NCBI GenBank assembly: GCA_011033025.1
Contig: WFMF01000149.1
Coordinates: 186,001-250,000, forward strand
Origin: Beroe forskalii
Taxonomy: Eukaryota; Ctenophora; Nuda; Beroida; Beroidae
Length of the DNA stretch: 64,000 bases
Reading direction: 5' to 3'
Shown here piece by piece: positions 6,810-51,700 of the stretch. How positions within the stretch are numbered: the first letter of the stretch is position 1; every line of letters starts with the position of its first letter. Under the pieces are notes generated by a model. The model made no database searches. It saw nothing but the letters and a program-made list of their open reading frames with translations, and was not told the origin of the DNA. The position numbers and the translations under genes were made by a program.

Positions 6810-6847
6810 TAGAATGAAGCCACTATTGGATTGCTCAGAATGGCTGA

Positions 6848-8200
6848 CTACTTCTTTTGGTAAAAAGGAATACTCCTCTTTAACTTTTCTTGTTCAGCCT
6901 TGAAAATGGGACAGTCAATGGAGTAAGCTGGATGGTTGCAATTACTAACATGCTCATTGTTGTTTGAGTTCTTACAATTAGTGCAGCAAGACTGTGATTG
7001 ATCAGACGAGTCCTTTGTAGGACAGTTCTTAGTTTCATGTGAGCCTGAGCAAAAACCACAGCAAATAGAGGCTTCACATTTGTCACTGATATGGCCAAAT
7101 TTTTGGCATTGGAAGCATCGTTTAACATGAAAAGCATCATATACCTTGCATGTGCCATTACCCAGATAAATTCTATCATTGCAACCATTTGCCATATAAT
7201 CTCTGATTATGTTGCTGACTGATATTGTTGCCCTGCTCAGATTGCTATTCTTTTTGAGCTTGGAGATGGCCAAAATGGTAAATTTTCCCTCATGATCTTG
7301 TGTAGCTACATCAGAACATAATTCCTTTATTGTAGGATTCTGTAAAAAGATTTCATCTCTAAGATCTTCTTTGGAAATGTTGTTGGGTACACCAACTACA
7401 TTCACAGTTGGGGTCTTTGGGGGGAGACTTTGAACTCTATGGTTGGGGGCAGAGACTTTGAGCTTGTCAATAAGAGTTTTTGCTGCACTATCAGAGTTAA
7501 GCACAAGACCAATTTCATCCTTTGAAGTAGAAAATGATTTACTGACTTGAATACCATTCTCCACACATGTTTTACGTAATACTGAGGAATCAATAGTTTC
7601 ACCAGAATTTTCAGATTTTCACCACAAGAACTTTTTTGGTAAACAAATTTTTGGTCCTTGAAGAATTGTTCCAGACATTTTCAACAGGGGTCAAGTTCAC
7701 TGAATTAGTGTCATCAGCTGGCATCAAACGGGAAGTTGAAACATTAGTTGAGTCTAGGAAATGCTTCTTAAGGTCAGACAATTCATTTCGAAACTCAGCC
7801 CTCAAGTTATCTAACTTTTTATCAATTACTTCAACCCTCTTGTCATGGGTAACAACCTTTTTTAACTCACACTCTGTACAACAACTGTTGCACATGAAAA
7901 AGAACTTTCCAAATCTGTTTTCATAGGAACCTGTCCTCTCAAGAGCAGGTCTAAGGTTTGGTCAGAGCATTCAACTGCATGAAAATAAGATTCACATTTA
8001 AAGCATTGAACTGAATATTGAAGAATATCAACCTCTGTTTGACATGCATTGCAAATACCATCGATGATGATGTTGGGAGCAGATGAGTCTCTATCCTGAA
8101 TCACTTCGATGCTTGGAGAACTGCTGCTTGACAAACTCCCTCCACTGTCATGTTCACCCGGGTCACTATCCATCCTCCGGGACTTGTCATTCTTGGTCAT
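6848..8200 (-). pseudogene. LINE ORF1: PHD finger plus zinc-knuckle protein, frameshifted
   Basis: ORF1 would encode the nucleic-acid-binding partner of the retrotransposon. From the ATG at 8,200 there is a Ser-rich leader, then a PHD-like zinc finger (CNAC, then CFKC, a His in YFHAVEC, and the last pair CNSCC). A coiled linker follows, then an RNA-recognition-like region, and finally CCHC-type knuckles (CFQCQKFGH, CCGFCSGSH). The frame shifts once near 7,905, inside the PHD finger before its last cysteine pair, and again near 7,615. In both places a one-base change reconnects the two open frames. PHD-bearing ORF1 proteins are known from some CR1/L2-type elements. Confidence 0.8.
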
Positions 8201-12711: not shown

Positions 12712-15700
12712 CTGAAATGAATAGCGAATTATAGAAAACACAAAATTTATACCTCTTCAATTAAAATTTTCTACAAAAAAGCATCAAAGTCCGAAATATT
12801 AGCACGAACAGATCCAGATAGAATACAACACGTGATACTCAATAAGAAAACATATTCGGTATATTCACAGAGACAGTGCTTCACTACAAAACAAGCGACA
12901 CAGACAGTTTACACAGCTTCACAGGGTCACAAGGAAGACTGTGTGTTTGACTGTTTGACAAGGGTTGACATGATAATTTCACGGTGTAAAACCAGGATCG
13001 ATGAAATCAAGCCATCACTATCCCATGAGCAGCCCAATATAAAACACGAAGGCGGCACATTGCTAAGTCACCTATCTTCACTGCTCGGCACTTTCAACCT
13101 CACTCGTTTCCTACAGTTTTGCTGCCTTCGGGCAATGTCTTTCCAGAACCGCTTACTGTAGCGTTTCTGACGAATTTCTAGAGCAATCTGAAACCTCTCA
13201 CTCGTCAATTGTGTGCAAAATCGAGGGACAAAAGAAACAAAAACAATGGACAATGGACCAGAGGGAAACGAAGACGAGCAAAATAATTAAACACGTCTGA
13301 AAGGTGGACAGACGGTAAGAGGGACTGACAGACTAATAAATGACCAGAAAGAAGACACATATTGGGGAAACGACAGCAGACGGACAGCAGACAGATTAGA
13401 GACAGTCAGCAGACAGACAGCAGACAGACAGCAGACAGACAGCAGACAGACAGCAGACAGACAGCAGACAGACAGCAGACAGACAGCAGACAGACACAGC
13501 AGACAGACAGCAGACAGACAGCAGACAGACAGCAGACAGACAGCAGACAGACAGCAGACAGACAGCAGACAGACAGAGCAGACAGACAGACAGACAGCAG
13601 ACAGACAGCAGACAGACAGCAGACAGACAGCAGACAGACAGCAGACAGACAGCAGACAGACAGCAGACAGACAGCAGACAGACAGCAGACAGACAGCAGA
13701 CAGACAGCAGACAGACAGCAGACAGACAGCAGACAGACAGCGTACAGACAGCAGACAGACAGCAGGCAAACAGCAGGCAGACAGCAGACAGACAGACAGC
13801 AGACAGACAGCAGACAGACAGCAGACAGACAGCAGACAGACAGACAGCAGACAGACAGCAGACAGACAGCAGACAGACAGCAGACAGACAGCAGACAGAC
13901 AGCAGACAGACAGCAGACAGACAGCAGACAGACAGCAGACAGACAGCAGACAGACAGCAGACAGACAGCAGACAGACAGCAAACAGACAGCAGACAGATA
14001 TACAGCAGACAAACAGACAGCAAACAGACAGAAGACAGACAGCAGACAGACAGCAGACAGACAGCAGACAGACAGCAGACAGACAGCAGACAGACAGCAG
14101 ACAGACAGACAGCAGACAGACAGCAGACAGACAGCAGACAGACAGCAGACAGACAGCAGACAGACAGCAGACAGACAGCAGACAGACAGCAGAGACAGCA
14201 GACAGACAGCAGACAGACAGAGAGACAGACAGACAGACAGCAGACAGACAGCAGACAGACAGCAGACTGAAATCAGACAGCAGACAGACAGAGAGACAGA
14301 CAGACAGCAGGCAGACAGCAGACAGACAGACAGCAGACAGACACACACCGCCCACCTCGAAGCATGAGAGCGCGTCCTCCCACTTGTACAACTCCTCGTA
14401 TATCATGCCCAGATGGTAGTTGCACGTGGCGCGCAGCACGTGGTCGTGGGACAGCACCTCGTCGTAGATCTTCAGCGCGTTCTTGAAACACACCTCGCTC
14501 TGACCCCCTGTTCTCCCACTGTCGGTACAGGAAACCCTGGGATAAATAAATATGCTGAGGAAGTTTCGAGAAGACTTTATTTGGTTATTGTTTCATGAAT
14601 TTCTATAGTTTCTGGGGTAGGGGAGGGAAATTCAAGCGCTCGCCATAGTCAGAGAAAACGATTTTTGGAGAAATTCTCTCCAAGGAAGAAGAGGGTTATT
14701 AAACCGAGACATATACTGAGAAATTACTATACTGAGAAATTACTATTTTGAGAGTGGCACTGACAAGTGACAGGGGGTTTCAAAGCGAAACGTTCTATTC
14801 TTGAAAGGCAACATTAGTAATTGACAGTTTTTTTTCTTCTTGCAAGTGTGACTTGACAGTTGATTTTACTTGGTTGAACTGTTTTAACCCTGAATTGGTT
14901 AGAATCTCCGTTAACGAATTCACATAAACCCCACACACCTTTTCTTGCCAGTTGAGTGCCACCAAGGGGTGTCTCCAGCCGTAGTGTCGTTTCCTGAAGT
15001 CGAGTGTCTTGTCGAAGATCCGGTTAGCTTTGGCGAAGAGCGCTGACTTTTCAGCCACGTGCTCGTTAGGGATTTTGTTAGCGCGCTTTGTCAACAACCT
15101 GAGATGAAATACTTGTTTTTCCAATGTGTAACCACATACATATGATATGGAGAGTTCATTATTCAATGATTCTACAGAAGTTTCTAAATAGAGAAATAAG
15201 GTGTATACCTCTAGATCTTCTTATGCCGACACTCTAACAATAAAAGAAAGGTGTGTGCGTTTGAATTTCATTGCCTCACCTTGATTTGTTGAAGCGATAC
15301 ATGTAGTAACCCGGTGACTTCTTGTAGTTACTCAGCATTCCGAACTTATTCTTAGTTTCCCGCAACAGATTCTCTGCTTCATCTGCCAGAAAATGAGGAG
15401 TTTTTAGAGAACCACCAAACAGTGAGAAATTAGAATAAACCTGAACTTAAAAAGTCCCAAATATAACAAAGGTTATATTTGTGATAGCTCAACTTGAAAT
15501 AAATCTTAGCCATCTCCACCCCTTCATCGAACCACTGAAGCTTTTGCTAACCGAGTTGCTTGAGCAGGAGGTAAGTTGACACGATGTTGTTATAAAGGGC
15601 ACACTCCTCTTCCAGCTTATTCTCAAGACTGGAGAGCCGGAGTTTCTCAATGGCCTCGTTGAAGCTGGATCGGGCGTGTTGCCACTCTACTTTGTAGTAG

Positions 15701-18700
15701 TAAACTTTACCCAGTGAGTAATTGATTTGGTAGAGGAGGTCCACTTCCTTGCCTGGACACAGCTTCAAGGCCTGAGTTTCGATTTTTTCAACATGGGAAC
15801 AATGAAATAGCCAACGTGTTTAACAATTTTTGAACTGTAAATTTTGTATTTTGACCACTGCACATTTGAAGATGACAGAATGACAAACTTATTCACACAT
15901 ATTGGAAAGAGTCACAAATGTTTGTAAACTCAGTTCCACAGTTAACAATTGTCATATTCTCACGTGTTTGAGGAGCTGGGTGCCGGGTTCGTAGTCGCAT
16001 ATCTCCCCCAGGAACTGCCCAGCTAACCACGCGGACTTGGACAGTTTGACAACCCTCTCCTTTGAAGAGACGCAGTCCCGCACTTGGGATACCAGCCTCG
16101 CGAGGTCCTCTTCTGCCTGGGAAGGGGATGGGTTAGGGAGATCTTCACAACGCAACAAGACTTGATTTTTAGGGCAAAGTCATGAATTTCAAAGACCCTG
16201 AAATTGAAAAGTGAAAATTGCCACGGCCTGTACAGTAGGTTTCAAATCTAAATCTGAGATGTTACCATTAAAAATCTTGCGGATTATTCACCTGGTCCGG
16301 CGTTTCACCGCACTCTTCTACCGCTCTTATCAGTTCTTTTCTTACCATTCCGTTATACGTCTGAAATTGAAGCAGTTGCTCATGGATTAAGGGATGAGGT
16401 AAAGGGAGAGGTAAAAATAACAGTTTTTGTCTGGAATGAATGATAAGGAATTCGATAATTCTAATAGTTTTAATCTAAATATGGATGAACGATCCTAACC
16501 TCGGCAGGACCCGGTATATTAGGGCATGTTGCTTCATTTCATCCCAGTATCTGAACAGGTCTATCTTGAAAGTGTTGAACTGGTTGATCTCTGAGCTGGA
16601 TCGGAACAGTTCGAAGTAGCGAGGGGTCCGGACTATTTCGTGCAGCTTACCCCACTCGTGAGCCTGGGCCGAGGGTGATAAGTTAGTGAGTCAGAGCCGA
16701 GGGTAATTAATGGGTGAGAGTGAAGCCAAATTATTTTCCGAACAATTCAAATTATAAATTCGATGTCATTAAATCAAAACTACCAACCTGGGACCAGTGC
16801 CAGGGGAGTTCCTCCAGCACCCTCCAATTAGTGGGCTGCGTCTCAAAGTACTTCGCCAGTTTCTGAGGTTGGGTATGTTCGTTAGTTGACGGCAGATGGA
16901 TATATCGTAGCGTGATGTGCTAATTACGTTAAAAAATAATCCAAAATATGGGCAAAAAATGACTGCGTTGCGACTACGATTTCCCCTTTGTGATTTGCAC
17001 CCCCACTGGCACCACCACGAGTAATCATTAATCTGGTGTGATCATATTGAGGAATGGACTGGAGTAATGACCACTCGTATGCTAGTGAAGTAGCCCTAAG
17101 AAGAGCTGTTTAATCGCCAATGAGCTGTTAATCGGTGCCTTAATAATGGGTCAGTAATCTTCTGTATATTATCACATTGATCAAGTCCATCTGAGAATTA
17201 TCGCATCTGTCACAATATCATTAGCATTAGCCTGTTATAACGGACCTCCAATGTTACTTGGGCATGTTTGGTTTGTCACCGTACAACTTCATTAAAGCTC
17301 GGTCTGCCTGTCTTGCCGTTACTTTTTCGAATTTTTCCAAAAAAGGAATGAATTTAGCTCCTCGCTGTGTCTAGTCTAAAAAGTACCAAACCATTTTGCA
17401 GTATTGGGTATAGGCACAAAGATACCATGTCGATCATAGTAATTAAGTAATTAGTCCGAAACAAAACCATGTAACTTTGGGGAAGAACCACTTTATAATT
17501 TTATAATACCTACCGCATGGTGCGTTCTGAATGGTGCCTTTTTGTTCCCCAACACGCAAAAGAAAAATCATATATGGAAAAATTATCTTAATGTACGAAC
17601 TATGATTTCGAATTCTTTTTTGTTTGAAGTCGTCCGTTTGTTACAATCTCAACCAAAATTCGCGGTCTCTGCAGCTGCAGTCTGACGCAATAGCAAGTTT
17701 CAGAATTGTGTTAATCTTAAAAACGAATTCTGTTTTAGTCACACCTGCAGTTTAATTTTAAGTACTCAAAATTGCACTCAACAATGTAATAGTTTGATTT
17801 TTTTAATCATTTAAGTAATGAGTTCTTGTGATCCACGTTTAAGTTTTCGGCGAGGAAATCGTGATGCAAAATAACCCCGATATTGTGTATCAGAGTGTGG
17901 AAGTTTGAAGTTCTACACATACCGTGTGGTACCACAAATAACTACCACATACCGTGTGGTACCACAAATAACTACCACATACCGTGTGGTACCACAAATA
18001 ACTACCACATACCGTGTGGTAGCAGTTGTGTGTCCGTCTGAACATGCTGGGCATCCTCCTCAGTTGGTGGGTGGGGTATCTGGTTGCCCTGGTGACGTTA
18101 ACTTCAGGAGTACCTCCCATCACCGAGCAGAGGACGGCTTTCTGTACACAGCCGTGAGCCAGGGAGAAGATACCCGTGTGCTCCTTTATCAAGGAGTCCT
18201 GCGCGGCTCTGAAGGGGGGATGTTAATCAGGTTTATCGCCGGACTTTTCAAAGAGAGAAAAACTCCGCAAGACTTGTATTGAAACATAAAATACTTAAAT
18301 AGTACTTTGAATGGACAATGGAATAAAATTGATTGAAATTTCAAGACATGTGCCTCAGTGTCTAGTGTCTACTCTCTGTGCACTTGCACTGTTTGTCAGA
18401 TTGTTACATTCAAACCTGTAAAATGAAGCCCAGTCTGCGCTCCTCACTTCGGAAGAATCTCTGTATCCGATCATGTAGAGGGCTCCGAGTATCTCAGTTT
18501 CAGTTAAACCTAGGAGGAGGGAAGAGGATTTTCAGATTCAAATTTGATCACACTGAGTTTCAGTTGAAAAAGGAAGGAAGAAAGATAATCCATAGATTAG
18601 CAGATTGTTGATCTAAACCCACCTCTGCGGCTCATGGCGATGAAGCACAGTGCGTCCTGGACCCACCCAAAGGGTTCTCCTGAGGGGTGGGACTGGAGGT

Positions 18701-27700: not shown

Positions 27701-30700
27701 TAGCATCCGGTTTTAATAATGTCATCATTTACCAGAAATTGAAATGACGTATTCTAATGAAGTGGAGACTGCTTAGCTGTCGAAAGTAGTTCAGAATTCT
27801 TATTAGATATCAAATGGAGCTAATTTTTCATTACTTAAACTGAATTGGAAATGTGATCAGAGACCTGACCTACTCGGTTATCTCAATAAGGAAGTTCTAA
27901 GGTTGAAATTAGCAACGTCACATAATATGGTCACATACGGATTCTAGCATTTAGCTGTCAAGGTAGGTTTTATCAAATATTGGGTGATCCATTATCTGAC
28001 CATCAATGGTGAACAGCCACGAACTTCCACCAATTAAAAGGGAGAGGGATTTTATCTATTTATTATTGTCATAATTTCTTTCTTTCAAAGCCCTTAGTGG
28101 TACCCCACCGTGGGTTTCAATCAATCAGTCGTATCTTTTTACATTGAACAACATCATGTGAAACTATCATAATTCTGTTGCCCTTTTCCTAATTGGCCAT
28201 GGCCATTAATAACTAACCGGTTAATCGATTAAATCACCCTTATAGGAACCACCTACAGTAAAACTTAGGAACACCCCATATCCAAAAAATTTAAAATTTC
28301 CACACAGACCAATTTTTACACTTTCTGAGGCCCGCTCGCTTCGCTCGCAAAGGTTGGCTACATTTTTTGCTAACGTGCTAATATACCACTGCAGAAGCCG
28401 AGTAAGACGTTTTGTGAAAATGAAATTGTCGCCTGATAATGATTTTAATCCTAAATTTACCCGAATTTCAAGGTGCCTGACGTGTGAAATCTAAAACGAA
28501 ATGGATTTCGATTGACAAGCACTAAGCAGGCGTCTGGGGGCGGCAGCCCCCAGAATCCAGACGTTCTGAGTAAATGAAATTTTCATCTTAAAGTGATTCT
28601 TACCCTAATTTTAGCCGAAATTTCAAGGTTCCTGACACAAGAAACTTAAATGAAATAAATTTCGAATGACAAGCAGGGGTCTGGGGGCGGCAGCCCCCAG
28701 AAGCCAGACGTTCTGAGTAGATTAAATTTTCATCGTATAGTGATTCTTACCTTATTTCAGCACAAGGTGCCTGACACAAGAAGCCTTAAACGAAATGAAT
28801 TTCGAATGATAAGCAGGGGTCTGGGGGCGGTAGCCCCCAGAAGCCAGGCGTTCTAAATAGATGAAATTGGCGCCTCATAATGATTCTTGAACCGTAATTT
28901 TAGCCGAAATTACAAGAAACCTAGAAGCCTGATTTCAGCACTTTTCAAGGTCAATGATTGCAATTGATCCACATTTACAGGGTGTTTCAAGACATGTGTC
29001 CAAATTTCAAATGGCTCTCAAAATCTAGCAAATATGACAGTGAAATTTTTGATTTATTTTGTAGGTAAGTGATTACATTTTCAAAATATCCATAAATCAA
29101 ATAACACTAATATTCGCAAGCCTCAGTTGGACCAACAAAATTGAGTAGAGTGTCTAAAAGGTATGCAAAACAGCAAATCTCTTGGCATGCATCAAATTTG
29201 GAAATTTTCAGTTTCAATTGTGAAAAGGATGTCATTGCAAACATCTGGAAACTTTTTGGGCATAAATTCAAAACCTATTGACGTAACAAGAAGATTGTAA
29301 ATCATTGCTGAATCTTTCATTGAATTTCCAGTACAGTTTCAAAATAGTCACACTATTTATGAAACACCCAGTAAATAAGTTGATCATTGGACGCACAGTA
29401 TCTGATAGAAGGTGTGAACACTGGATAAATTTCATAAGTTCATTCAATAACACGAATCTTATCAGTTATCATCAGTTTGTACTTCAACTAATCGCCCTCA
29501 GCATAAGGGGTAAATAAATTTTGAGAACTAGTCAGACAATAATAGAGTTTTTCCTGTCTGTAATCATAATTTCCTGATTAATTTTCCTGATTAATGAATT
29601 TTTTGTAATCATAATTCAAAATACTGTAATCAATTTCTATAATAATTTTCTGTGTTTGCTTCATTAAAATTTCCACCGAAATTATGAAATTTCCTCTTTT
29701 TTTCCCAAATTTCCACGCAGATATCTGCCGGTCTGCTGCGGTTATTGGCGATGGGAGGAACACTCAACACTCCTTTATGTGATACCACGCCCATAACGTT
29801 ACCATACATGGACTTCAGGTTACCATGGTTACCAGTGTCTCATTGTAGCCATAGTAACCTGCACAAAACAAAAGTTTGCACCCAAAAATAGCCACAGCCA
29901 CAACAATACAATGTAGACAATGGAGTTTTGTAACAATAGCTCCAACTCTCTTCGAAGAATGAAGAGTGTTTGCAGTTAAATTACTTGTTTGAAGAAGAGG
30001 TCAGAAGTGTGGTTTTTATTGCAATATTGAACATATCTTCTTGGAGGGGGATGGATGGGCCAATTCCGAACCCCGGCGGATGGGAACAAGTCCTGTTCAC
30101 TCCCCAGAATTGAGCATATCATTCAAGCAATCATAGAATTTTCTTGAATGAAAAATTTATTTAATTCATTCTTCTTAAATGGCTCAGTGGTAAAGATGCA
30201 TATCATTAAATATTATCATATTTTCTATACTGTACTAGTAACATTGAGCCAAAAAATTTTACAGCTCAACAGGTGTCACTACATAAACCGTTTTAATTAG
30301 AGTGTTGAAGTTAGTTTCAAAGTGTGACATCCATTATCAATTTTTTGATCAAATGGTGCACAATTTTGAAACATAGCGCTACATGAATGTGTGATCTGAC
30401 TAAGATGGAACCAACTAAGACACCATTGATCGAACCGGGGCAGTTTTGCGACCGAGGGTTCAGGATTATCCTCGATAAAAACTGAAGCCAATTTATCAGT
30501 CGGTCGTCTTAGACAAACGTTAATCCTCGGTAAATACCGTGGCCGAGGACCCGGTTAATCATTTAGACGTTATCAATAGAATGTCTAACCACCAATGGCA
30601 CGAACCTTGCTGGTGGGCTCGCCAATGGAGTAGGCGTGGCTGTTTAGGGTGTCCAGGAGTCCCAATCCGAAGTCAGCTAACCTGCTGGGGTCCCCGTTCC

Positions 30701-33700
30701 GTGCCTCAAACAGGTGGTGTGAGAGAATCATCTGAAAACAAAGATTGGGTAAATAATCATGTGAGAAATTAAACGAAATTGATACTTTGATAGTTGAATG
30801 AATTAGAAAATTAATTGATTAAATGATTAACTATAATAAAGTGTGCGGGCGAAACTTTTTGAAACCATATTTCCTGCTTTACTGTAATCCTCCTCGAGCT
30901 CTGAATCCGTCCACCCGCTATTCCTCAGACCTCCCTCTCCTTTACTCAGTTCCAAATCCTGAATCTTCCTCGCTCTTTCTCAATACCTGTGATCACTCAA
31001 GTGCCTAATATCTTAATGTCAGCGCCGATCGGCGGCGTATTAGCTTTCCCGTAAAATCACACTGACATTGACCAATCAGCACGCGAGACGACTCTCACCT
31101 CGCGTGCTGATTGGTTTCAGATGGACCTATGGGCAAACTAATATATACGCCGTGTCTACCTTATAAAACCACAGTTGAGCAGATAATGAGCCTTTGCAGC
31201 CCGAGGAGGTGTGAGATTATTAAAATGTGTTGTATAGCTTTTAGCACACTGCACCACAATCTAGAAGATCTCGGGCAGAAAGCAGCCGATTTCGCGTCAT
31301 TAACACCCCATTCTAAGCCTTAATAATGACGTCACTCTACTCTGATAGGAGTTATTCCTGCATTACGATCTAGAGGAGGTAGTGGTTCGAGAAGCCTGTA
31401 CAGTTTTCACGGCGAGCAGTGGTGGGCAGACAAATTGGAAATGGTATATCTATCTACCTCTGGGCGACACGAGCAGGAAAATATAATCTTTGACGTCGTC
31501 CATTTCCGAATCTCAGCCAAGATAACAGCGTCATTCCCACGGATTCTACCTGATAGTTCCCATCCAGTAGAAATCTTAAGACTACTACTAGAATTTATAT
31601 CACGAAATCTGAATATACTGCGGTGCGACAAAAAGTTCATGTTATAGTGACGCAATATTTTCGGGTTTTCCAATATTGGGTGTCGCGGAAAGTATTCTAC
31701 GGTAATTGGAATTTAAACTCTGTTGAATAGTTCCACTATTAGCATATGATCGTACCATGGGATAAAGAGTCCCAGATGTTCTAAAATGGCTCGAAAAATA
31801 GGGCAGTAATCTCTGGAATTTTTTGATACCCTGATCTAAGCTTCTAAGGAAGTACCTACTCAAGAATCGAGATAATGGGTTAGAAACTCTGACCACAAAA
31901 TGTAGAGGGACTGAAAATTCAGCAGAATTGTTTCAGTACATTAAGTCCCGCTTTCAAATTCCAAAAGCGTACACACTTTTGCTGTACACCTGAAGATACG
32001 CCATGCGCACTTAGTCAAACACAAGGAATTCTAAGAATTTGAGATCTGAGTAGCACTTGATATATTGCACTTTATCTCGTAGAGTTGCTACCTCACAGAT
32101 TGTTATCATAAGTTGTTATTTTGCTACTACAGCTGACAATTGACTTCGTCAGAGAGGTTTTCGTCATGCATCAGTTACGTAAGATTACAGTCTTTCATGA
32201 AGCAGAATATTCGATGATTCGACAAAGGAAGATGCTCAGTTTTAGACCTTTCCAATTACCAATTAGCCCATCAAGAAACTTCATTGAGTTCATCTTGCTG
32301 TTCAATGTCAAGAAAGCAATCTGTAGACTAAATATGATATGTTCCGCATATTTTGCAATAAGAAACACCCCTCAGCCAAGAGAGTCCAATATGATATATC
32401 TCGTACTGAAATAGTTTGGATGACAAAAGATAAAATCAGCAGTTGCCCTCCAGAAAGTAAAATAGCTTTTGCATATTGTATATATCTTCTAACATGTGTT
32501 TCATAGAGCGTATATAAATAGCTTAGATATTTCGAAACAAGCCGTTCTTTCAGCTGTGTTTCCTATGCAAAATATTTCAAATCAAGCACCATTTTGATTG
32601 TAGGGCTCACAGGATTTCCTTACACACTCAACTCTAGTCTCTAGTGCAGTTAGTTCTCTTTGAACTGACATTCTACAACTGGCAAAGAGAAGTAAGGATT
32701 GTGCAACAAGTTTATTTGGTTATTTTCAAATTTGGAATAGCATTTCATAAGCTCACGGTAAACTCTTATCGCATATATAATCTTAGCGCAATTAACATTG
32801 ACCTAAGTAAACGACTTAACGATTTCATCATTCTTAATTATCTTAAATTCAAAAGCTCTAAAAACCAAGTTTAGTGATTCTTTTGTCGTCATAATACGCT
32901 GACACCAATGCCTTCAAAAATTAATAAATTTAATATTTCTCTGATAACAGACAAAAGCAATTAAAGGTCCTGAATAAAACACAAGGATTTCACTATTTTA
33001 GGAGATAATTTTGACAAATAATTAGGTTTTTGTAGTAAAGTAAGTATGAAAATAATATCATTCATTTTGTAGGGTTTTATCAATTTGAATAAAACAATTA
33101 CTTCACTTTGTCGTCATATAGCACTATTTGAGGAGGACGGCCATTGAAATTACTCACTATTCCATACTCAATCTTACTAGAAGCCTCCAAGTTCTAGTAA
33201 GTACTTATGATAAACTCTACATTATAAATGGTCCTTTTTCAATAAACAAACTTGAACATTCAATATTCATGCTCAATTGCATATTATCGCCCTTTAATAA
33301 CCTTTATGCTATTGTATGCCCCAGTGAACAGGGATTCCAATTAACTAATTAAATGAACCTAATTACTGTGAAATTACTGTGCAATGGGCAGGGAACCATT
33401 CATATATCTATTGATACTTGTTGCAATAGAAAACTCAACATAGCCTTAAACCAACAATTGGCGGTCGAATGCGATGTAATTTTAAGGCTTGGCGTTTGTA
33501 AATTAGTGATGTCACACACATTTTCGGTGAACTATCCTACATAAAAATAAGCGGCAGATGAAATAAAAAGTTTGTTGTATACAGTTAGTCAGACCTCACT
33601 GTAGTCTATATAATTGTATATAATAGTACATGATAGTAAAGTACGAAGTTTGAGCTCAAATTTACATAAAAAGTTTGATCAAACTCCGGAGAACTTTTCA

Positions 33701-36700: not shown

Positions 36701-39700
36701 CCACCAAAACCGTTGGACGGTTGGTCTAGTAACCCCCCGCGGGTTTGGATGTGACAACGGAACCTGAAAAGAGACAAAGTGGGCTGATCACATCCAAACC
36801 AGCGGGGGGTTACTAGACCAACCGTCCAACGGTTTTGGTGGTTAATATCTGAGTATATTTTCTATTTAGGAATTAGGTGTTGAGTACATTTTGCATTATG
36901 TACCAGCTGTGAACAATTCAGTTTCATGTCGAAAATGGAATTCGGCAACTGTCGTTGGGAGCTTTTATGTATAAGCGATAATTATCGCAGAAAAGCGGTA
37001 ATTAACGCTTTATTAGAAAAAGGTCGTTAATAAACCGCTTCCGGAGTGTTTTCAAGGTCAAGAAAAAAGCGCTATATTACCGGTAATTACCAGTTTTTAT
37101 TGACACCGACGACAAAAAAGCAAAAATAAGCGATAATTGACTAAAAATAAGCGATTATGAGTGATATTAACGCTAAGTTACCGCTTTTTCCCTTCAGATT
37201 ACCGCTTATAATCGCTCAAGGAGCGGTTTTTCCCTATCGTGAATGAAGCGCTTATAATCGCTAGATCAAAAGCGATTATAAGCGATGATTAATGGAAGTT
37301 CGCCCACCAAAAACATGATCCAAGGAGCATTACGCTGTCATTAGCTTCAGAAGCTTCAGACTATTTTACACATTATTAGGTAAAAATATTCCGTCCAATT
37401 GTGCCGAGGAATAATTAAAACTCCATTTTAGACAGATGTCTCGTAGGTTTGTCTTTTAGGTTGGTGATAATTTTAGATAAGTTGACAAGGAACTCAATCC
37501 AGAATGCGCAGAATGACTTCCAATTCGAAATCGCGCAAGAAAAGTTTCAGTCAGGAGACAAGTGAAACGACAAAGTTAAACAATGCCCACAACTTGAACT
37601 TCTACAACTAACAAGATTAGATATTTAGATAGTTAGATATATCAGATTAAATTTGAATAATGAAACGAATCATCTCCAATTATCATTAATTAGTTAAGAT
37701 AAGAACTAAGTGATATGAATAGGTTGTGTGTCAGTTGTAGGTTCTAACTTTCTAACCAATAAACTTTACAGAAAGTATGAATATGATGAATGATATATTC
37801 ATTGATTCATTGAAATATCACAAGAACACGACGTTTAAATTGTTACAATTAATAATAATGATATTAATAATAAAATTTTTCCATTTGGAAACTAATATAT
37901 TCAAAAACGTGCACCTAAACCACTTTACTTTCAACGCTGTATTAAGTTTAAATTCAAAAGTTTGTCATATCATTGGAGACAACTTTGACTTCTCGCATTA
38001 TACTTCTCTGTTTCTGAGTCGGTGTCTTTTGCAAGCACGTTCACAAATCTATCTCTCTTTTGTAGTGAGCCACAGCTAACAACTTCGCCCCTACTGATAG
38101 CCCACTTTTGATATTGTTTTTCAGTTTTTCGACTAGTTCAGCTCTCGCTCTACCGTCTGCAATCGTTCTATCCGGGGCAACATAGACTTTTTTTCTACCT
38201 GGTTATAGATGTTCTACTCGACTACTCGTCCTACTTCTGATTAAATTGACGAAGAAATCCCTATTCTACACGCCATGTCTGAGCATTTGTCAGCAGTCAC
38301 AAAGTTATTGGTGGAAACTGGCAAACTCTGGCGGATTTCACTGTAAATCGGCAAAAGAGTTCACTGCAAAATTGTTAGCCAAACAATTTGAACATTTTAT
38401 TGTTCACAGTTTTTTAGCTGGGGAAATAAGGTTTACACTTGCAAAATGAAAAAGCACCGACACAGGCAAAAGACCGTTTGCTGCTGGCAACGGGTGAACT
38501 AAAGTTCACAAAAGTGAACTAAAGAGGTAACTGGATGATAATTTGCCCCGAATTCATCGTTCAGTTATACACAAGAACACAAAAATCTGTACACAACTGA
38601 GAATAAGACACACCAGTACTGCATGGTATGTAGATAAGAATGCTGCAAAGACACATCCAACAGCTACTCCTATTGAACCCACACCCATCATAACAAATGC
38701 TGCACTTGCCATTCTTTTTGTCCCAAAGAAGCACTTATCAGTCTCGATCAGACTTAGATCAATCCTGGAAATACAAAAAGCTAAGTTGACTATTCCAATT
38801 CCAACAGCTATACAAATCATGTCGTCCAGACGAAGTAGAACAAGCAAGTAAGAAGCAGCTATAACTGTGGAAACTATTGGGTGAATGACCCTGAAGGGTA
38901 TGTGTTTCAGTAGGAAGAACCCTGCAATCCGCCCCAGCATCTTGACACCCCCAAATATGAGAGCCAGGATTAGAAACTGCATCCCATTCACATTAGCATC
39001 TTTCTTGTGCAGGTTAACTTGATTACTATATCTCATCAGCTCGGGTGCTAGGATTATGCTTCCCCAACCTTGTAGGTAATTTATGAAATTTGCTATACAG
39101 GCCTTAAATAGTCTACATTTAAAGTTAGGAACTTCTCCATCATCCTCAGCAGGTTCAGTTTCTCCTGCAGATTCAGTTGGAGCTTTGATATCTCCTGCAG
39201 ATTCAGTTGGAGCTTTGATATCTCCTGCAGATTCAGTTGGAGCTTTGATATCTGTATTTTGGGCGTCTGACAGAGCAGTGTGCAGCAGGATGATTGGAGG
39301 TATCAGCGAAGGGATGGCAGCACTCACCAGAAGGACTCTCCAGCCCAGGAAATCAAGCAGCAGATATCCTAAGATTGCAGACCATGCAGCACCGGCAGAA
39401 AACACAATAACTGTTACGAAAGATCCTGCAGCGAAAACGTCATATGCTGAAACTTCCGTTGCCACAAAGATTCTCACTACAGTGAAGTTTAGTCGCACAC
39501 ATGCGCCTCTGATGCACCGGGAAATCAAGAGGACGTCGATATTTGGAACTAAGGCTGAAAATATAGTTCCAAAGATGGTTGCATATAAGGAGAACAGAAG
39601 AACACGTCGCCTGCAGAACCTGAAATGTTTGTCGCACTTTATTGGTAATCAATGACCATGAAAAATGAAGAAACACCAAATTGGAACTTGCATAAAAAGT

Positions 39701-42700
39701 TCAATAAAAACATGGATAGTGCCACATGAATTCATTATTTCATGAGTGATAAACTGATGAGTACCTGTATCAACTTATTAATTTTTATTAGGCTATTATG
39801 GAATTTGGAAGGAAAAATATCGGTTGTGTCTCTCTTTTTTGTTTATAATAGAGGCTGGAATTTCGTGATGAGACCAAAGAGCCATCTTTTGACCAACGAA
39901 CCTTCCTAGGAGAGGTACAAAGACCAGACTGGAGAATGCCATGGCAACTGCTGTGCTGACAGCAAGCAGGTTCTCCTGCATTCTGGTTACACCTAACTCA
40001 GTAGCAACAGCTTGCGTGAAAACACCTGAGCATTGCAGAGGTAACGATAAAGGTCTAACGATAAAGGTAGCGTTTTCGGGTTTAACCTTAAACAAGATCC
40101 ATTTCAAAAGGCCTACTTTTAATTTCAAAACTTATATTTAACATGAAATATTTTTACAATGTCATTCAGGTTTAAACATTCAGACGATAAAGGTCTAAAT
40201 CTTCACAATCTAGGTATTTACGTATTTTCCAGCACTGTCACATTAAAGTTTTGAGCTAGACACAGTAGAGTGCAAACAATTAATGATAATCAGTAGAGAT
40301 AAGATTGGATAGCAATGATTTAGTAATAATTGATTCATTGATTAATTATTCATTTCTTAATTTAGTAGTATCAAATTCTATCTTCAAATACCTGCAATAT
40401 AAATCTCAATTGCATCGCCGAATACGGTGCACCACGCAACAGCATATAGAAACTTGTCTCGTCGTGTAAGCTTGAGATTTGAGAAATCAACTGATGCTAA
40501 GCCTGTCTTTGCCTTCGCGGCGTTCTCCAATAACGGTAAAGCATTATCATTTTTCGTGGATTTTTCAGTCATATTCTTTTCAGTCCCCCTGAATATGTTG
40601 AATCAATGGGTTTACGAAACTGCAAGGGGCGAACTGAAGCGAAAGCATCAGACCAGTATCCAGTATCAGTGCACCACGCAAGATACACGCTTTAAAACGC
40701 CGGCGTGTTACACTCAGAGTAAATAAGTAATAAGAGTTAATCAGTAAAAAGCTAAAGTGGCATGTAGTCGGCGTGGTACTGCTGCACTCGGCAGTTGGCG
40801 TGATACTGGTCTAACAATACCTTTCCGAAACAAAAAAATGATTTCAAGAAACAAAAAAGATCGAAGAAACCAAAAAAGATATGTATGTATGTATGTAGAT
40901 GCGCTTCCGAAGATGCGCTGTGCCGAACGACAAGACTCCTCACATTTAACAATTAAGTCTGAGGAGTAACGGTCGTGCCGCGAGCGGCGAGGCTGATATG
41001 TTGGCGTGCCAAAAAGTCTAAATAGCAGAGGGCAGGTGACTATGCAAACCATTGAACGCTTAACTATAAGTGCCAGTTGGGTAATAAACCCCAATGGCCT
41101 CAACTCAAGTTATCTGCCTAACTGGCTTGAGCCGAAAACATATGCTCAATTTCTTTTTTAAGGCGATGAAAAAGGCAAAGGCTTCTCCTCCATTTTCTTA
41201 TTTACTACTAGTATCCAGGACAAGAAATGGACAAGAATGTCCTGTATCTGAATCTCTTGTATGGGGGACCAGAATCAAACCCTTTTGTACTGTTGTTTCG
41301 TATTGTGGGTAAACATACTAAATTCCCTTATTTGGTGTGTTACACAGGCAGTTCGAAATGCACCCCATGTGCCCCTGGTGCACAATGCCCAGGTCCGTGC
41401 GGCACGCAGACCAAAATAAATAACATGTATATAAGGCGTACGCCATACAAACTCAAGCCGTGCACACCGTGCACACTGCAGTTCAAACAGTCGTCTTTAA
41501 TAATTCGATGTTATTAATATGATTGGATGGACCAAGTAAATTTAATTATTAGTAAGAGAACCTATCATTCTATAATTTGTTGTAAAAATTTGTTAGGTGA
41601 AGAGATATAAACTACCATATTTGTATTATACATAAAAACGAATTTTTGATTGGGCAGAATCCCTAAATTAACGGTTTAAGTTCCTGCGATGCTAAATGGT
41701 ATTTGGTAAAAGAGTGAGTTCCCTTTTATGGTGAGTTGATGTACTTAATGGAATGTTATAAAGTATTGGTTGAACATGATGAATATTGGATATCCTTATT
41801 TGATGGTTAAAACAAAGTTACGTAGTATTGGATAACCGAGTAATTTCCCTTTTTTGATATTCTAACATCCTACTATTCTACATGTTATAACAAGTGAAAG
41901 GTTATTATGTCGTGTTAGGTACATTTATACAGATTTAGTTCTAATTTATTATTATTTATTATTCTATTAATTGATAAAGATACCTATTAAGTATTATGTT
42001 ATATAATATTATAATACTAGGTGACTAGATTAAATTCCTATTTTTAGTTTGTTTATATCATATTTTACTTTGTTTCTACTAACTTTACTTATTTGTGATA
42101 TTGACATAATTTTATGTATTATTGGGTAACAGACTAAATTCTCTTATTAAGTTGTTTATGTAATATTACAAATTAATGAGTGAGTACTGAGCGGATTATT
42201 CTCAGGTTATTAGCTTATTTGTTAAGTTGTTATGTTAATAATAATAATAATGTAGCATGGTGAATGGTGATGGATGGGCAGATTTGACTCTCTAATTTGA
42301 TGTAACAACTTGTTGATTATGTTATTGGGTTAACAGGGCAAATTGCATTATTTGATGGGTTAATATGATAATAGTATTGTGTTATGAATTATTGGGTGAA
42401 CTAATAAGTTTCCTCAATAGTATGTCTTCATATAATATATTTATATTTAGTATTGGGTGAACATAGTTATGAAGTTCCCTAGGTGCGTTGATTTGATGTT
42501 AGATGTATTATAAGGTAAAAATATTATTTTTTTCCTGTGATGCTGTGATAGTTAGTACTACACTTCTATGAAGTATTGGATGAACCTAGACAGTGAGAGA
42601 TCCCTTATTTGGTGTGTTACTAAACTTTAATATGTTACAACTCAAAGCATTCCTTGTGATAGGCATCATTACAGAATTATAGCATTAATAGTACAGGGTG

Positions 42701-45700: not shown

Positions 45701-48700
45701 ACCCATCAAGGGGTACCCTGGGAAGCTCAACCTCCACCTGAACTCCTCGTCACCAAATTCACCGCTCAATTCTCAAAGACACTCAATATTAGTAAACGAT
45801 GTTGACCGGTCCGAAGGGAAAGTTATAATTAATTTCAGTTGTCTTGGCTCAACTTCTTGTGCACTTAATCACTGTAAAACAGTAAAACAAAGGGTTCATA
45901 ATCCCAGGGGTTCTTATAATAGCCAACCATCACAATTGGCAGAATTGGCTTACCGTTTAATTGCTCAATAATTAAGGAGGTGTATTTATAAAGGTTGTAA
46001 TTTGGGGATTTTTCGGAAATCTAGTATTGTATAATTCGCACATAAGCTACCAGGCTTGGAGCGCGGCAAATGGTTATTGGGTTTAGGGGCTAATAGGAAT
46101 TTATAAACTCCGCTTCGCCTTCGACTCTATGAGGGCAATTATGTTGTACTGTACCAAACTCGTGGTACAATAGGTATTCTATCATCTATACTAATATTGG
46201 AAGTGACCTGATAAATAGATAATGTATTACCTGCGCATAACAACAACGCTGTTAAAACGTTAAGTGCAAGAGTAAATGAAAACATGTCGAGAAATCCTCC
46301 TCTGCGATGAGGACACGAATAACCTCTTGAAGAAATGTCTGCTAGAAATAAAGAAACTCCAGAGTCTGGGGTTATGAGGACCAAGAGGTGAAGTGGTCTC
46401 CTGAGTCATGTACCACGGGAAAATTGAGAGCAGTTGGCAGCCGGGAAAATTGAGAATGCTGTAAATCGCTTGTATGTTGAGAGCATGAATTATGCAATAT
46501 TATGCAATAGAGCAAAACCAGCCAGCCCAGAATTTTGGGCATGGGACTACACGGCCCCCACTAAGGGGGGGGGCAGGCCCCCCTAGTTTTCAAAAGGCCC
46601 CCTGTAGAAGCGGTTTATTAATAATAACGACATTTTTCTAATAAAGCGGTAATAACCGCTTTTTTGTGATAATTATCGCTTATTGATTAAAAAAAGCTCC
46701 TAACGACAGTTGCCTAAAAATCTATGTGAGGAGGCCCTAATATTGACTAAGGCAAAGTATATTTCTGCATATTCTACAAGCTGAGGTTTCTTATTATTTT
46801 CCAACTATGTTGAATGGTAAAGTTGTCCATTCTTCTCAGGGCCACACAACCTCCGATTCTGATCGTCAAATATTCAACTCTTTAATTCTCACATCCTCTT
46901 TTTATCAAATTCTAGACTTAGCAGTTACCCCTTCTTTTTCTTAACTTCTCTTACCTCTCGTTTCCCTCAATTCTCTTACCTCGTCGTTTGCCTCAACTTC
47001 TCTTACCTCTCGTTTCCCTCAACTCTCTTACCTCTCGTTTCCCTCAACTTCTCTTACCTCTCGTTTCCCTCAACTCTCTTACCTCTCGTTTCCCTCAACT
47101 TCTCTTACCTCTCGTTTCCCTCAACTTCTCTTACCTCGTCGTTTCCCTCAACTTCTCTTACCTCTTGTTTCCCTCAACTTCTCTAACCTCGTCATTTCCC
47201 TCAACTCTTTTACCCCTCGTTTCCCTCAACTCTTTTGCCTCTCGTTTCCCTCAACTCTCTTACGTCTCGTTTCCCTCAAAGTCTCTTACCTCGTCGTTTC
47301 CCTCAATTCTCTTACATCGTTGTTTCCCTCAAAGTCTCTTACCTCGTCGTTTCCCTCAATTCTCTTACCTCTCGTTTCCCTCAACTTCTCTTACCTCTCG
47401 TTTCCCTCAACTCTCTTACCTCTCGTTTCCCTCAACTTCTCTTACCTCTCGTTTCCCTCAACTTCTCTTACATCGTCGTTTCCCTCAACTTCTCTTACCT
47501 CTCGTTTCCCTCAACTCTTACCTCTCGTTTCCTCAACTCTCACCTCGTTTCCCTCAACTCTTACCTCTCGTTTCCCTCAACTTCTCTTACCTCGTCGTTT
47601 CCCTAAAACTCTCTTACCTCTCGTTTCCCTCAACTCTCTTACCTCTCGTTTCCCTCAACTTCTCTTACCTCTCGTTTCCCTCAACTCTCTTACCTCTCGT
47701 TTCCCTCAACTTCTCTTACCTCTCGTTTCCCTCAACTTCTCTTACCTCGTCGTTTCCCTCAACTTCTCTTACCTCTTGTTTCCCTCAACTTCTCTAACCT
47801 CGTCATTTCCTCAACTCTTTTACCCCTCGTTTCCCTCAACTCTTTTGCCTCTCGTTTCCCTCAACTCTCTTACGTCTCGTTTCCCTCAAAGTCTCTTACC
47901 TCGTCGTTTCCCTCAATTCTCTTACATCGTTGTTTCCCTCAAAGTCTCTTACCTCGTCGTTTCCTCAATTCTCTTACCTCTCGTTTCCCTCAACTTCTCT
48001 TACCTCTCGTTTCCCTCAACTCTCTTACCTCTCGTTTCCCTCAACTTCTCTTACCTCTCGTTTCCCTCAACTTCTCTTACATCGTCGTTTCCCTCAACTT
48101 CTCTTACCTCTCGTTTCCCTCAACTCTTACCTCTCGTTTCCCTCAACTCTCGTACCTCTCGTTTCCCTCAACTCTTACCTCTCGTTTCCCTCAACTTCTC
48201 TTACCTCTCGTTTCCCTCAACTTCTCTTACCTCGTCGTTTCCCTAAAACTCTCTTACCTCTCGTTTCCCTCAACTCTCTTACCTCTCGTTTCCCTCAACT
48301 TCTCTTACCTCTCGTTTCCCTCAACTTCTCTTACCTCGTCGTTTCCCTAAAACTCTCTTACCTCTCGTTTCCCTCAACTCTTACCTCTCGTTTCCCTCAA
48401 CTCTCTTACCTCTCGTTTCCCTCAACTTCTCTTACCTCTCGTTTCCCTCAACTTCTCTTACCTCTCGTTTCCCTCAACTCTCTTACCTCTCGTTTCTCTG
48501 GAGTGAGGTTGTGGATCCTCTCGTTTACCACCGGTGGCAGGTGCGGGAGTCTCACCATCGTGTCACTGTCTGAAATGAAATAAGAAGGTGTCACTGTCTG
48601 AAATGAAATTATTAGGTGTCACTGTCTGAAATGAAATAAGTAGGTGTCACTGTCTGAAATGAAATAAGTGAGTGAAATGCTGATAAAATAACTTCGTTTA

Positions 48701-51700
48701 GGAGGGAGATTTCTCAAAAATTTGAGAAATAATGAGCATGTTAAGATGGAAAATTTCCAAAAGATTGCGTTGTGAATGTTGCCTAATACTTAGTCGTCAT
48801 AACTTCATACAGCCGCTGGAATATACATAGTGCACTGATTTTATGGCCAAATTAATGCTTTTGTTGTCAGCAAGATTGAATATACGGTGAAAGTAAGAAG
48901 ATGGCATGAGTTTCATGTAGAGAATATACAGTGAAATGTGCCTGACAATGAACTAATAAAATCGTATCCTGAAGACCATACCAGGGTCCAGGCCTACCAA
49001 CAAACTCATATTTAAAATCAATTTTCAGCTGTAAAATAACCCTCGGATCAGTTGAAATCTTTCGAATGAAGCCCGATTTAGAATGAAGGACGATGTTCTT
49101 GCCAGTGATTTAAGACATGTTTAAGCAGGAACGTGTTGTGTTTATGTATTAGTAACGTAGCAACTTGTCAACAAAAGGAGTCAAACAGGGCTAATAGCAA
49201 GTTCCAGCAGTAAGCTCCTATTGTTAGGGGTTAGGGCCATTGTGTAGAGCATAATGGGGGTTATTATAGTACTGATCATATTATAATATTCTGCTTTGAT
49301 TATTCTAGCAAAAGAACTCTGCAAGTCTCCAGGGTGTAAAACACTGCCCGACTCGAATTTTAATAAAAACATAATGTAATTTTTTTGTTCAAATTTTGCT
49401 ACAATGCTACGTCGAAATAATATTTTTCCGGGTCTAAAAATGGAAAATACTCAATCACCTTTATTTCCCATGGAAGAATTTACGAGAAAGAAATCAATGC
49501 ACTGATAAAAAGGAGCATAGAAAACGTGAGAAACTAACTGCTAACAAAAATATGTCTCTTGATTACAGAAAGAATGACATCAAACTACGTCAATTACAAG
49601 CAATAGATCGAAATCACTTGCATTGATACATATGAAAAGCAAAAACAAAATTATTTGACTGTCGAATGAGTGAGGAGTGAGCTAAGTTTTTAATTTTTAA
49701 CATCAGACAATAACTAAATAAACACGCCCATGAATTAAGGCGCGGTCGTATAAAGAGATTGGAATCACTGATTAATTCTATGTCAACTAAATTAACATTC
49801 AAATTACAGAAATTATCAAAACAATCAGCATTCAACTCGGTTTAGCGTGATGATACTCACCTTTATAATCAATCTCAATGGCAGCCTTCAGATCTCTCAA
49901 CAGAATATCACCCAACTCTTTGGCTGATGAGAAGGTCGCTACTTTCTGGGATGCTCTGATCTTGTCTTTCAACCTCACAAGCTTCTCAGAGGACTTAGCG
50001 TTCTCTACACAGTAGATTTGACGTTGTTCCTCTGTGAGAGTAGATTATTATCGAAGGCGAATTACTACTATCTTCGTAACTTTTTTTTGACATTGACCAG
50101 CGCGTGAGTTGACCATAAACTTGCGCGCTGATTGGATGCTGAAGGATCCAACGGGACAATACGCCGTCGACATTTAGGGCTGACATTATGAAGGTTTAAA
50201 GAATAAAAACGTTGTTGAGTTTGTGAATATAAATCAAAATAACACTAGGAATATTCTGGAGCCTTAATTAAGGTTGTTTCAAATTCCTGGAAAAATGCGT
50301 AAACTGGTACAAAAGCATGATGCTGATTAAAAATTTCAATCAGCATCATACTTAATGCATCATTCTTAATGGATCTTTACAATACAGAGGTTTAATTTGG
50401 AATCTTACTTGGGTTAACTGTGAAAAGTTGATTAATCAGCCAGAAGACACTAAGCTTAATTTACGCTTGCTTCTTCAATCTTTATTAGTTTATTCACTAC
50501 ACTGCATCCAGTTTTACAATAAATTTCACTGCGGTTAATAAGCTTCAAAAACTTTAATTCTGGCCGTACTGCATCCATTTCACACTAACAAAATAAGTGT
50601 AGTTTTCCGTCTCCTGAATCGTTTATCACACAACCCTCCCTCTCTACAGTCATAACAAAGCTAGCTCCAGCGAGGAATGCCATTATTCTCAGTCCTATGA
50701 ATTCCATCTGAATAATCCTCTGACCAGCCCTGATATAAGAGCTCAAACACAAGCTCCAGAAAGCGTCCACAAACAATAGGCGAGTGAGAATGTTGTCTTT
50801 ATCATGGTTTAGAATGATGAATTGAGGGCGTTGAAGCGCCTATTTGTCATTCCAGAACTTATATTATCAGGTGTGTGCCGTGTGGGGTGTGGTGTAGGAG
50901 TTAATAGGTGCTTCGCAATTTAGAAACTGATTTTAAAGTCTGAGATTATTATCCATGTTACATTATCGAAGCCTCGGAAATAATGAAGCTTATTTTAGAA
51001 TTTCTCTTTATAAGTTTTAATAGAGTCAGTCTGTTTTAGCTATTATCTGACGCGCTATAAAAGGTCTTATTTCCTAATTTTACGGAGAAATTCGGACTGT
51101 TTCTCATGAACATTACAGGTCTCTGTTGGTGATTATAGCCTCAAAATTGAAATAAAGCGGGAGATTTCCCCATATTTGACATTTGGGATTTCAGTTTGAA
51201 TTCAGTTTTATTTAGCAGAGTCAGGACAAGCATTTTTGTCCTTTTTTAGATATTTATTTGAGATCTCAGTAAACAATTACGGTTTGGCTATTTCAGTCCA
51301 CAATCAGCCATTCAAACCACAGTCTGAAGACTTCAGACTCTAGAAATAATATGCCTCAGACAGCCCACAACAACTCTACAACTTCCATGGAGAGTTTACA
51401 GCAAAGATTCCTGGAGACTTCTTTGTATTTGTGCAGACTGCAGAAGTCTGTCTTTTCCATCACTCCTCCTTCTGTAGCCTCCCACACTGAATTTGGAGGG
51501 AGCTATATCAGGACATGATCTAACTTTGCAAAGAGTTTAATAGAAGAGTAGGAGGAGTAGGAGGAGGAGAGGGAGGGAAGGGCTATTATATATCCCTTGT
51601 CATCATCATAAACCTCTATTATTTATGTATGTATATATTCGGATTATCAAGGCTATTAAACATGTGTAGTGGGAGCCTAATCGACTAATTGGGCGAAAGT

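Follow-up and report, generated by a model that had tools for sequence, protein, structure and literature searches.

In the ctenophore Beroe forskalii, the 5′ splice site of an 83-bp coding exon forms the first unit of a 61-unit minisatellite that straddles the exon–intron junction, the unit carrying the last 9–10 bases of the exon. Copies of the exon's own splice sites flank it on either side, and like arrays stand at the ends of other exons in the genome. The favored explanation, with a probability of roughly two in three, is that duplications across exon ends are tolerated, and that the minisatellite was born from an exon–intron boundary and grew neutrally behind the first donor. The window referred to below is the whole stretch of DNA analysed, 64,000 nucleotides of contig WFMF01000149.1; its main features are listed in Table 1, together with those found elsewhere in the genome.

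The TTC41-like gene and its 83-bp exon

A TTC41-like protein of Bolinopsis microptera (P0001) is the better of two protein relatives of the predicted gene (63% identity over 55% of the concatenated query). Residues 115–1092 of its 1094 are collinear with the minus strand, running from 60090 to 13071 with gaps between the tblastn matches, and this collinear homology over most of the protein length identifies the gene as TTC41-like. The 83-bp exon, which an earlier note on this DNA had attributed to such a gene, aligns with P0001 residues 222–250 at 72% identity (tblastn), and the alignment runs on into the next exon, in agreement with that attribution. The alternative that the exon had been misread was ruled out by the same homologue aligning through it.

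Splice-aware joining places the acceptor of the exon (TTTCATTTCAG|ACAG) at 48569 and its donor (CGAGAG|GTAAGA) at 48487, and the intron from this donor to the exon at 30731 measures 17,755 bp, matching the 17.8 kb reported earlier. The joined protein (...NLTPEKRE|MILSHHLFEARN...) matches that of P0001 (...NLKPEKREMILAHHLFEARN...) without a gap. The junction scores 175.0 with the first-unit donor and 136.7 with the runner-up, which lies in a later unit; the comparison is made at the protein level, with junctions fitted to the Bolinopsis protein sequence and not to its gene structure. This fit upholds the earlier reading of the first array unit as the donor of the exon, and suggests that the first donor is the one used in this animal.

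Table 1. Exons and arrays of the TTC41-like gene, and like arrays elsewhere in the genome (window coordinates unless a contig handle is given)
Feature	Position	Strand	Basis and detail
TTC41-like gene as mapped by P0001	13071..60090	minus	tblastn, P0001 residues 115–1092 of 1094
Preceding coding exon	49861..50029	minus	tblastn, splice-aware joining; within P0001 residues 164–221; donor AAAG|GTGAGT
Acceptor array, 28 bp × 3.9, TTTCATTTCAG|ACAGTGACACCTACTTA	48560..48669	minus	TRF, splice-aware join; last copy is the homologue-fitting acceptor, its last 10 bp exonic
83-bp coding exon (SDTMVRLPHLPPVVNERIHNLTPEKRE)	48487..48569	minus	tblastn and splice-aware joining; phase 1 in, phase 0 out
First-unit donor GAG|GTAAGA	48481..48489	minus	splice-aware join; the donor fitting the homologue's protein
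61-unit donor array, unit AAACGAGAG|GTAAGAGAAGTTGAGGG	46946..48496	minus	TRF and unit splitting; first 9–10 bp of the first unit exonic
Following coding exon (MILSHHLFEARN...TSK)	30606..30731	minus	tblastn, splice-aware joining
Second donor array, TACCACACG|GTATGTG four times	17916..18021	minus	TRF, 3.5 copies, 100% matches
11 bp × 87 TGTCTGCTGTC array	13372..14340	minus	TRF, splice-aware join; starts 16 bp past exon end at 14356
Kelch-gene intron, ~171 bp	C191:154908-154737	minus	five units between six AGGYAA sites
Coding-like exon end at array start	C2:1095, C3, C55, C98, C110, C122 minus, C153		read by eye
No exon beside array (2/12)	C122 plus, C154		read by eye
Array longer than examined flank (3/12)	C1:1948, C2:441, C67		also C44, from the GGTAAG pattern

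Composition of the donor array

TRF reports the donor array at 46925–48496 with a 51-bp period and at 46946–48496 with a 26-bp period (60.8 copies). Splitting at an AAACGA anchor yields 61 units, of 26 bp (24 units), 25 bp (16), 27 bp (13), 23 bp (5), 24 bp (2) and 20 bp (1). The array extends for about 1.54 kb directly past the exon end, so that both its place and the statement that it fills the next ~1.5 kb of the intron stand, and exon and array adjoin, as had been claimed, on a single contig of 391,665 bp as assembled. Chance occurrence of the array is excluded because the window contains 61 copies of GAGGTAAGAG at no more than one mismatch, 57 of them within the array, versus 3.1 expected.

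Read in the direction of transcription, the consensus unit AAACGAGAG|GTAAGAGAAGTTGAGGG consists of nine exonic bases, encoding K-R-E, and the first 16–17 intronic bases. Purines make up 82% of the array on the transcript strand. GAG|GTAAGA is kept in 47 of the 61 units, and not in every unit as the earlier note had it; the variants are GAT|GTAAGA (four), GAC|GTAAGA, GGG|GTAAAA, GAG|GTTAGA and GAG|GCAAAA (two each), and GAG|GTACGA and GAG|GTGAGA (one each). About sixty donor-like sites are indeed present, with GT in 59 of 61 units and GC in two. The array contains 21 distinct unit sequences, and units 13–34 recur as units 37–58 with 19 of 22 identical; growth therefore proceeded partly by block duplication.

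Further arrays of the gene and their effect on the reading frame

The second donor array of the gene (Table 1) is built of 30-bp units, three of them complete and the fourth partial, with donors at 18013, 17983, 17953 and 17923. It is in frame, and skipped units would each add VCGSYLWYHT, once to three times. The donor is absent from the unit of the 11-bp TGTCTGCTGTC array.

At the 83-bp exon, donor 1 alone among the 59 with GT yields an open frame through to the following exon, and the other 58 lead to a frameshift or stop: donor 2 shifts the frame, and a TGA is common to all longer exons from the third donor on (six donors being listed individually and the remainder taken from the overall count). 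The tandem acceptors behave likewise, the innermost being the single productive one of four and the other three giving a frameshift or stop. Since only the inner donor/acceptor pair is productive, protein output depends on the use of this pair. The earlier proposal that the array could blur exon length is possible as such; however, because all GT donors but the first disrupt the frame or bring in a stop, the use of downstream donors would be noise or poison and not a source of useful isoforms.

Like arrays elsewhere in the genome

Like arrays were sought in the genome (216 Mb in 1,134 contigs) and in a 264-kb survey made up of the window, 100 kb of C191 flanks, 80 kb of C1 and 20 kb of C673, the last picked by a donor-pattern match. 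In the survey, an exon end of SNRNP25 has the same architecture (GACAACAAG|GTGAGA, 26-bp unit); its DNK|IRV junction is backed by Mnemiopsis and Bolinopsis proteins, and its intron measures ~304 bp. The Kelch-gene intron consists wholly of array units; four of its six AGGYAA sites read AG|GTAAGCT, and the downstream exon starts with GTAAGCT, like the donors. This intron is a candidate for recent intron gain by tandem duplication.

Across the genome, AGGTAAG occurring three times with gaps of 8–38 bp gives 1,355 matches versus 541 for the reversed pattern, both figures counting overlapping matches and not arrays. The AGGTAAG matches listed fall into 12 clusters (C2:441651-443743 counted as one), and all 12 upstream flanks were read by eye, not blinded. 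Seven of the 12 start at a coding-like exon end, the last bases of which lie within the unit. Two clusters show no exon, and in three the array extends beyond the flank examined. Counter to a class of exon-end arrays, the less specific pattern of three GGTAAG shows no genome-wide excess, with 4,827 matches against 5,976 when the motif is reversed.

Two of the seven exons are confirmed by homology: that on C55 as a lamin (Pfam LTD, 2.8e-8; lamin-B2, 5.3e-5), and that on the minus strand of C122 as Raf/KSR, for which the next exon was found and the GQ|VYEG junction is ungapped versus RAF (E 7.7e-13). The C110 exon weakly resembles a papain-type protease, with four papain-type chains at E 0.18–0.89 only, and the C3 exon, without a named relative, continues in frame into a following exon. 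The calls at C2:1095, C98 and C153 are based on the reading frame alone; the C2:1095 exon has no match in Pfam or PDB, and the C98, C110, C153 and C3 exons have none in Pfam. A rule that every unit carries 9–10 exonic bases held for the first four arrays (three of TTC41, one of SNRNP25) and was broken by C110, Raf/KSR and C153, the arrays of which share about 29–35 exonic bases with the exon, mismatches allowed; these figures leave out Kelch, lamin and C3, which gave negative offsets in the next-copy comparison.

At least 45 open codons precede the first donor in seven of nine determinable genome-wide arrays, versus 41% of 44 single-copy AGGTRAG sites, a modest contrast in which some of the 44 sites are probably real donors. 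Seven arrays with the reversed motif in the unit showed no evident exon when read by eye, not blinded.

Outside these clusters, C673:77766-77874 and 81316-81481 hold a pair of related arrays whose 25-bp unit includes a donor, with no exon seen alongside. At C1:132245-132545 (plus), 36-bp units with a donor (GAG|GTAGGC) and TACTAAC stand right after a coding-like exon, in a region that looks duplicated, as similar open frames lie ~3 kb apart.

Origin of the donor array

The neutral origin would proceed as follows. A short tandem duplication would have captured the final 9–10 exonic bases together with 16–17 bases at the start of the intron, and the duplicated boundary would then have grown to 61 units, partly via block duplication. 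The first, upstream donor would still end the exon correctly, which is why boundary duplications would survive, and the extra exon tails and donors would leave with the intron. The donor array would be neutral or only mildly noisy, and the acceptor array before the exon would be its mirror image, with the last copy used. As the exon tail AAACGAGAG present in the unit is conserved as coding sequence (K-R-E), the exon came before the array. The Bolinopsis protein (...EKREMIL...) fits a junction exactly at the first donor. Neutral expansion is the best supported of the three effects considered in the earlier note, and the donor array is probably neutral. Counter to this, a cluster of equal donors could move use downstream.

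The retention of GT in 59 of 61 units, with donor columns steadier than columns 17–27, is as expected if the donors mattered. Among distinct units, changes versus the consensus number 12/189 in the donor columns and 64/231 in columns 17–27, where the units differ in length and the alignment is uncertain; the donor columns are no better conserved than the adjoining AAACGA columns, which have 5/126 changes (Fisher P = 0.45). The columns give no clear indication that the donors are under selection, and recent homogenisation makes the column test weak. These figures bear on the proposal that the array is a functional U1 platform, on which dozens of U1 snRNPs, close to where the 17.8-kb intron begins, would hold the 5′ end or keep early polyadenylation sites silent until transcription reaches the distant acceptor. 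The array holds 46 U1-consensus sites (at least 7 of 9 matches) versus 10 in the other 16.2 kb of the intron, and its donor has seven contiguous U1 matches, equalled by one other among the 15 donors listed for the gene; the pairing was scored against the textbook U1 5′ end and not that of this animal. ATTAAA (46886) and AATAAA (46619) lie 60 and 327 bp beyond the array, and the intron contains 14 AATAAA, a setting compatible with the earlier idea of a U1 sink, but the donor columns do not stand out from AAACGA, and like arrays occur in the short introns of Kelch and SNRNP25, where such help seems needless. A U1 platform, in either role, is accordingly regarded as unlikely. A splicing switch, in which downstream donors add tails with a frameshift or stop and lower or tune TTC41 output via poison isoforms, is the least probable of the explanations weighed. 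It would account for the loss of frame at 58 of the 59 GT donors and three of the four acceptors, but the same outcome is the default for random units.

Another rival is that minisatellites are dense in the genome and that some happen to touch exon ends by chance. The 264-kb survey contains 88 arrays (12–80-bp units, at least 2.5 copies), and AGGTRAG lies in five of these 88 TRF units versus 1.3 in shuffles, a weak enrichment in which two of the five units are on C673, chosen by its donor-pattern match, and one is the TTC41 donor array itself; GTRAGT shows no excess in the TRF units (3/88 versus 3.2 in shuffles). Within the TTC41 gene span, three of 14 arrays (at least 2.5 copies) straddle a splice junction, whereas random placement gives a mean of 0.09–0.45 when 10–60 exonic bp are tolerated (P from 0/3000 to 0.007); with the original donor array left out, two of 13 straddle (P = 0.003–0.07 at the same tolerance). 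Free overlap with exons, with 300 exonic bp tolerated, makes three of 14 unremarkable (P = 0.14, or 0.30 without the original donor array). The excess in this gene is suggestive only, as the choice of gene followed from the finding itself and the outcome depends on the tolerance. The reversed GGTAAG control, at least as common as the motif itself, also speaks for coincidence; the surplus of the 7-mer AGGTAAG over its reversed control (in overlapping matches) and the arrays that begin, as read by eye, at coding-like exon ends among the listed matches speak against it. Coincidence is considered improbable, marginally more so than the U1 platform, and the neutral growth of a duplicated boundary remains the preferred account.

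Implications

Whether the genome harbors a recurrent process that tandemly amplifies exon–intron boundaries, with a class of intronic minisatellites that descend from and start at real junctions, is a more tentative matter, for which the odds are put slightly below even. By taking the first donor, the spliceosome would hide duplicated exon tails from selection, so that exon ends would become birthplaces of repeats. Such a process, if real, would be a continuing source of alternative exon ends and, where the unit holds both splice signals as in the Kelch gene, of new introns. A genome-wide class of exon-end arrays would offer a simple route to intron lengthening, exon-end shifts and perhaps intron birth, with splicing acting as a shield that lets repeats grow. 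The presence of about sixty near-identical donors beside one exon offers a natural test of how the spliceosome selects one 5′ splice site among equals and of the link between U1 occupancy and donor use, and variation of copy number among individuals would tie minisatellite mutation directly to splicing.

Relation to known systems

The minisatellite of human IFI6 starts near the end of an exon and has about 26 units of 12 nt, which give in-frame extensions. The TTC41 array differs in having 61 units of ~26 bp and later donors that would break the frame; the second donor array of TTC41 is like IFI6 in that it would give in-frame variation (VCGSYLWYHT). According to a report on IFI6 (G1P3), the minisatellite supplies several splice donors, and two downstream repeat units make isoforms (PMC4526556). 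At least one such array has thus been described already, a point on which the earlier note had been undecided, and the TTC41 array is similar to it in starting at a coding exon end and in having units that resemble the donor consensus. The present case differs in that a tandem acceptor is found too, and in that further genes of the same genome carry like arrays.

Internal tandem repeats at exon–intron boundaries of primate-specific human genes were described in 2009; according to the passages concerned, they have units of ~30 bp and can alter splicing or form novel introns in paralogues (PMC2812944). Those passages describe variable repeats with a mean of four units in human segmental-duplication genes, whereas the donor itself as the amplified unit, a feature of TTC41, is absent from them. 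For potato RdRp, an intron is reported to have arisen when a piece of exon containing AGGT was duplicated in tandem (PMC4974935); the Kelch intron looks similar, with its five units, six AGGYAA sites and an exon resuming with GTAAGCT, and no such gain is claimed for TTC41. Among the matches listed from open-licence papers, no ctenophore splice-site array was found, nor a description of an exon with both splice sites amplified or of a genome with recurring arrays of this type. The donor minisatellite is of a known kind, and what is new here is its size, its two-sidedness and its recurrence (SNRNP25, Kelch, lamin, Raf/KSR).

Other features of the window

No structured RNA family was matched anywhere in the window. 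LINE-like open frames lie at 4171-7618 on the minus strand, among them a frame at 4941-6893 with endonuclease and reverse transcriptase domains (Pfam Exo_endo_phos, 7.9e-12; RVT_1, 3.1e-12). A gene neighbouring TTC41-like has named relatives in Mnemiopsis leidyi (84%) and Bolinopsis (81%). On the minus strand, both 13193-13071 and 12717-12601 match the C-terminal residues of the TTC41-like protein (FQIALEIRQKRY... and FQIALKIRQSRF...) and are possible alternative terminal exons. Within the 17.8-kb TTC41 intron, and on the same (minus) strand, lies an MFS transporter gene (38554-40602; Pfam MFS_1, 1.2e-11, at 38554-39648), which holds three 30-bp coding repeats at 39161-39253 (TRF, 3.1 copies, 100% matches).
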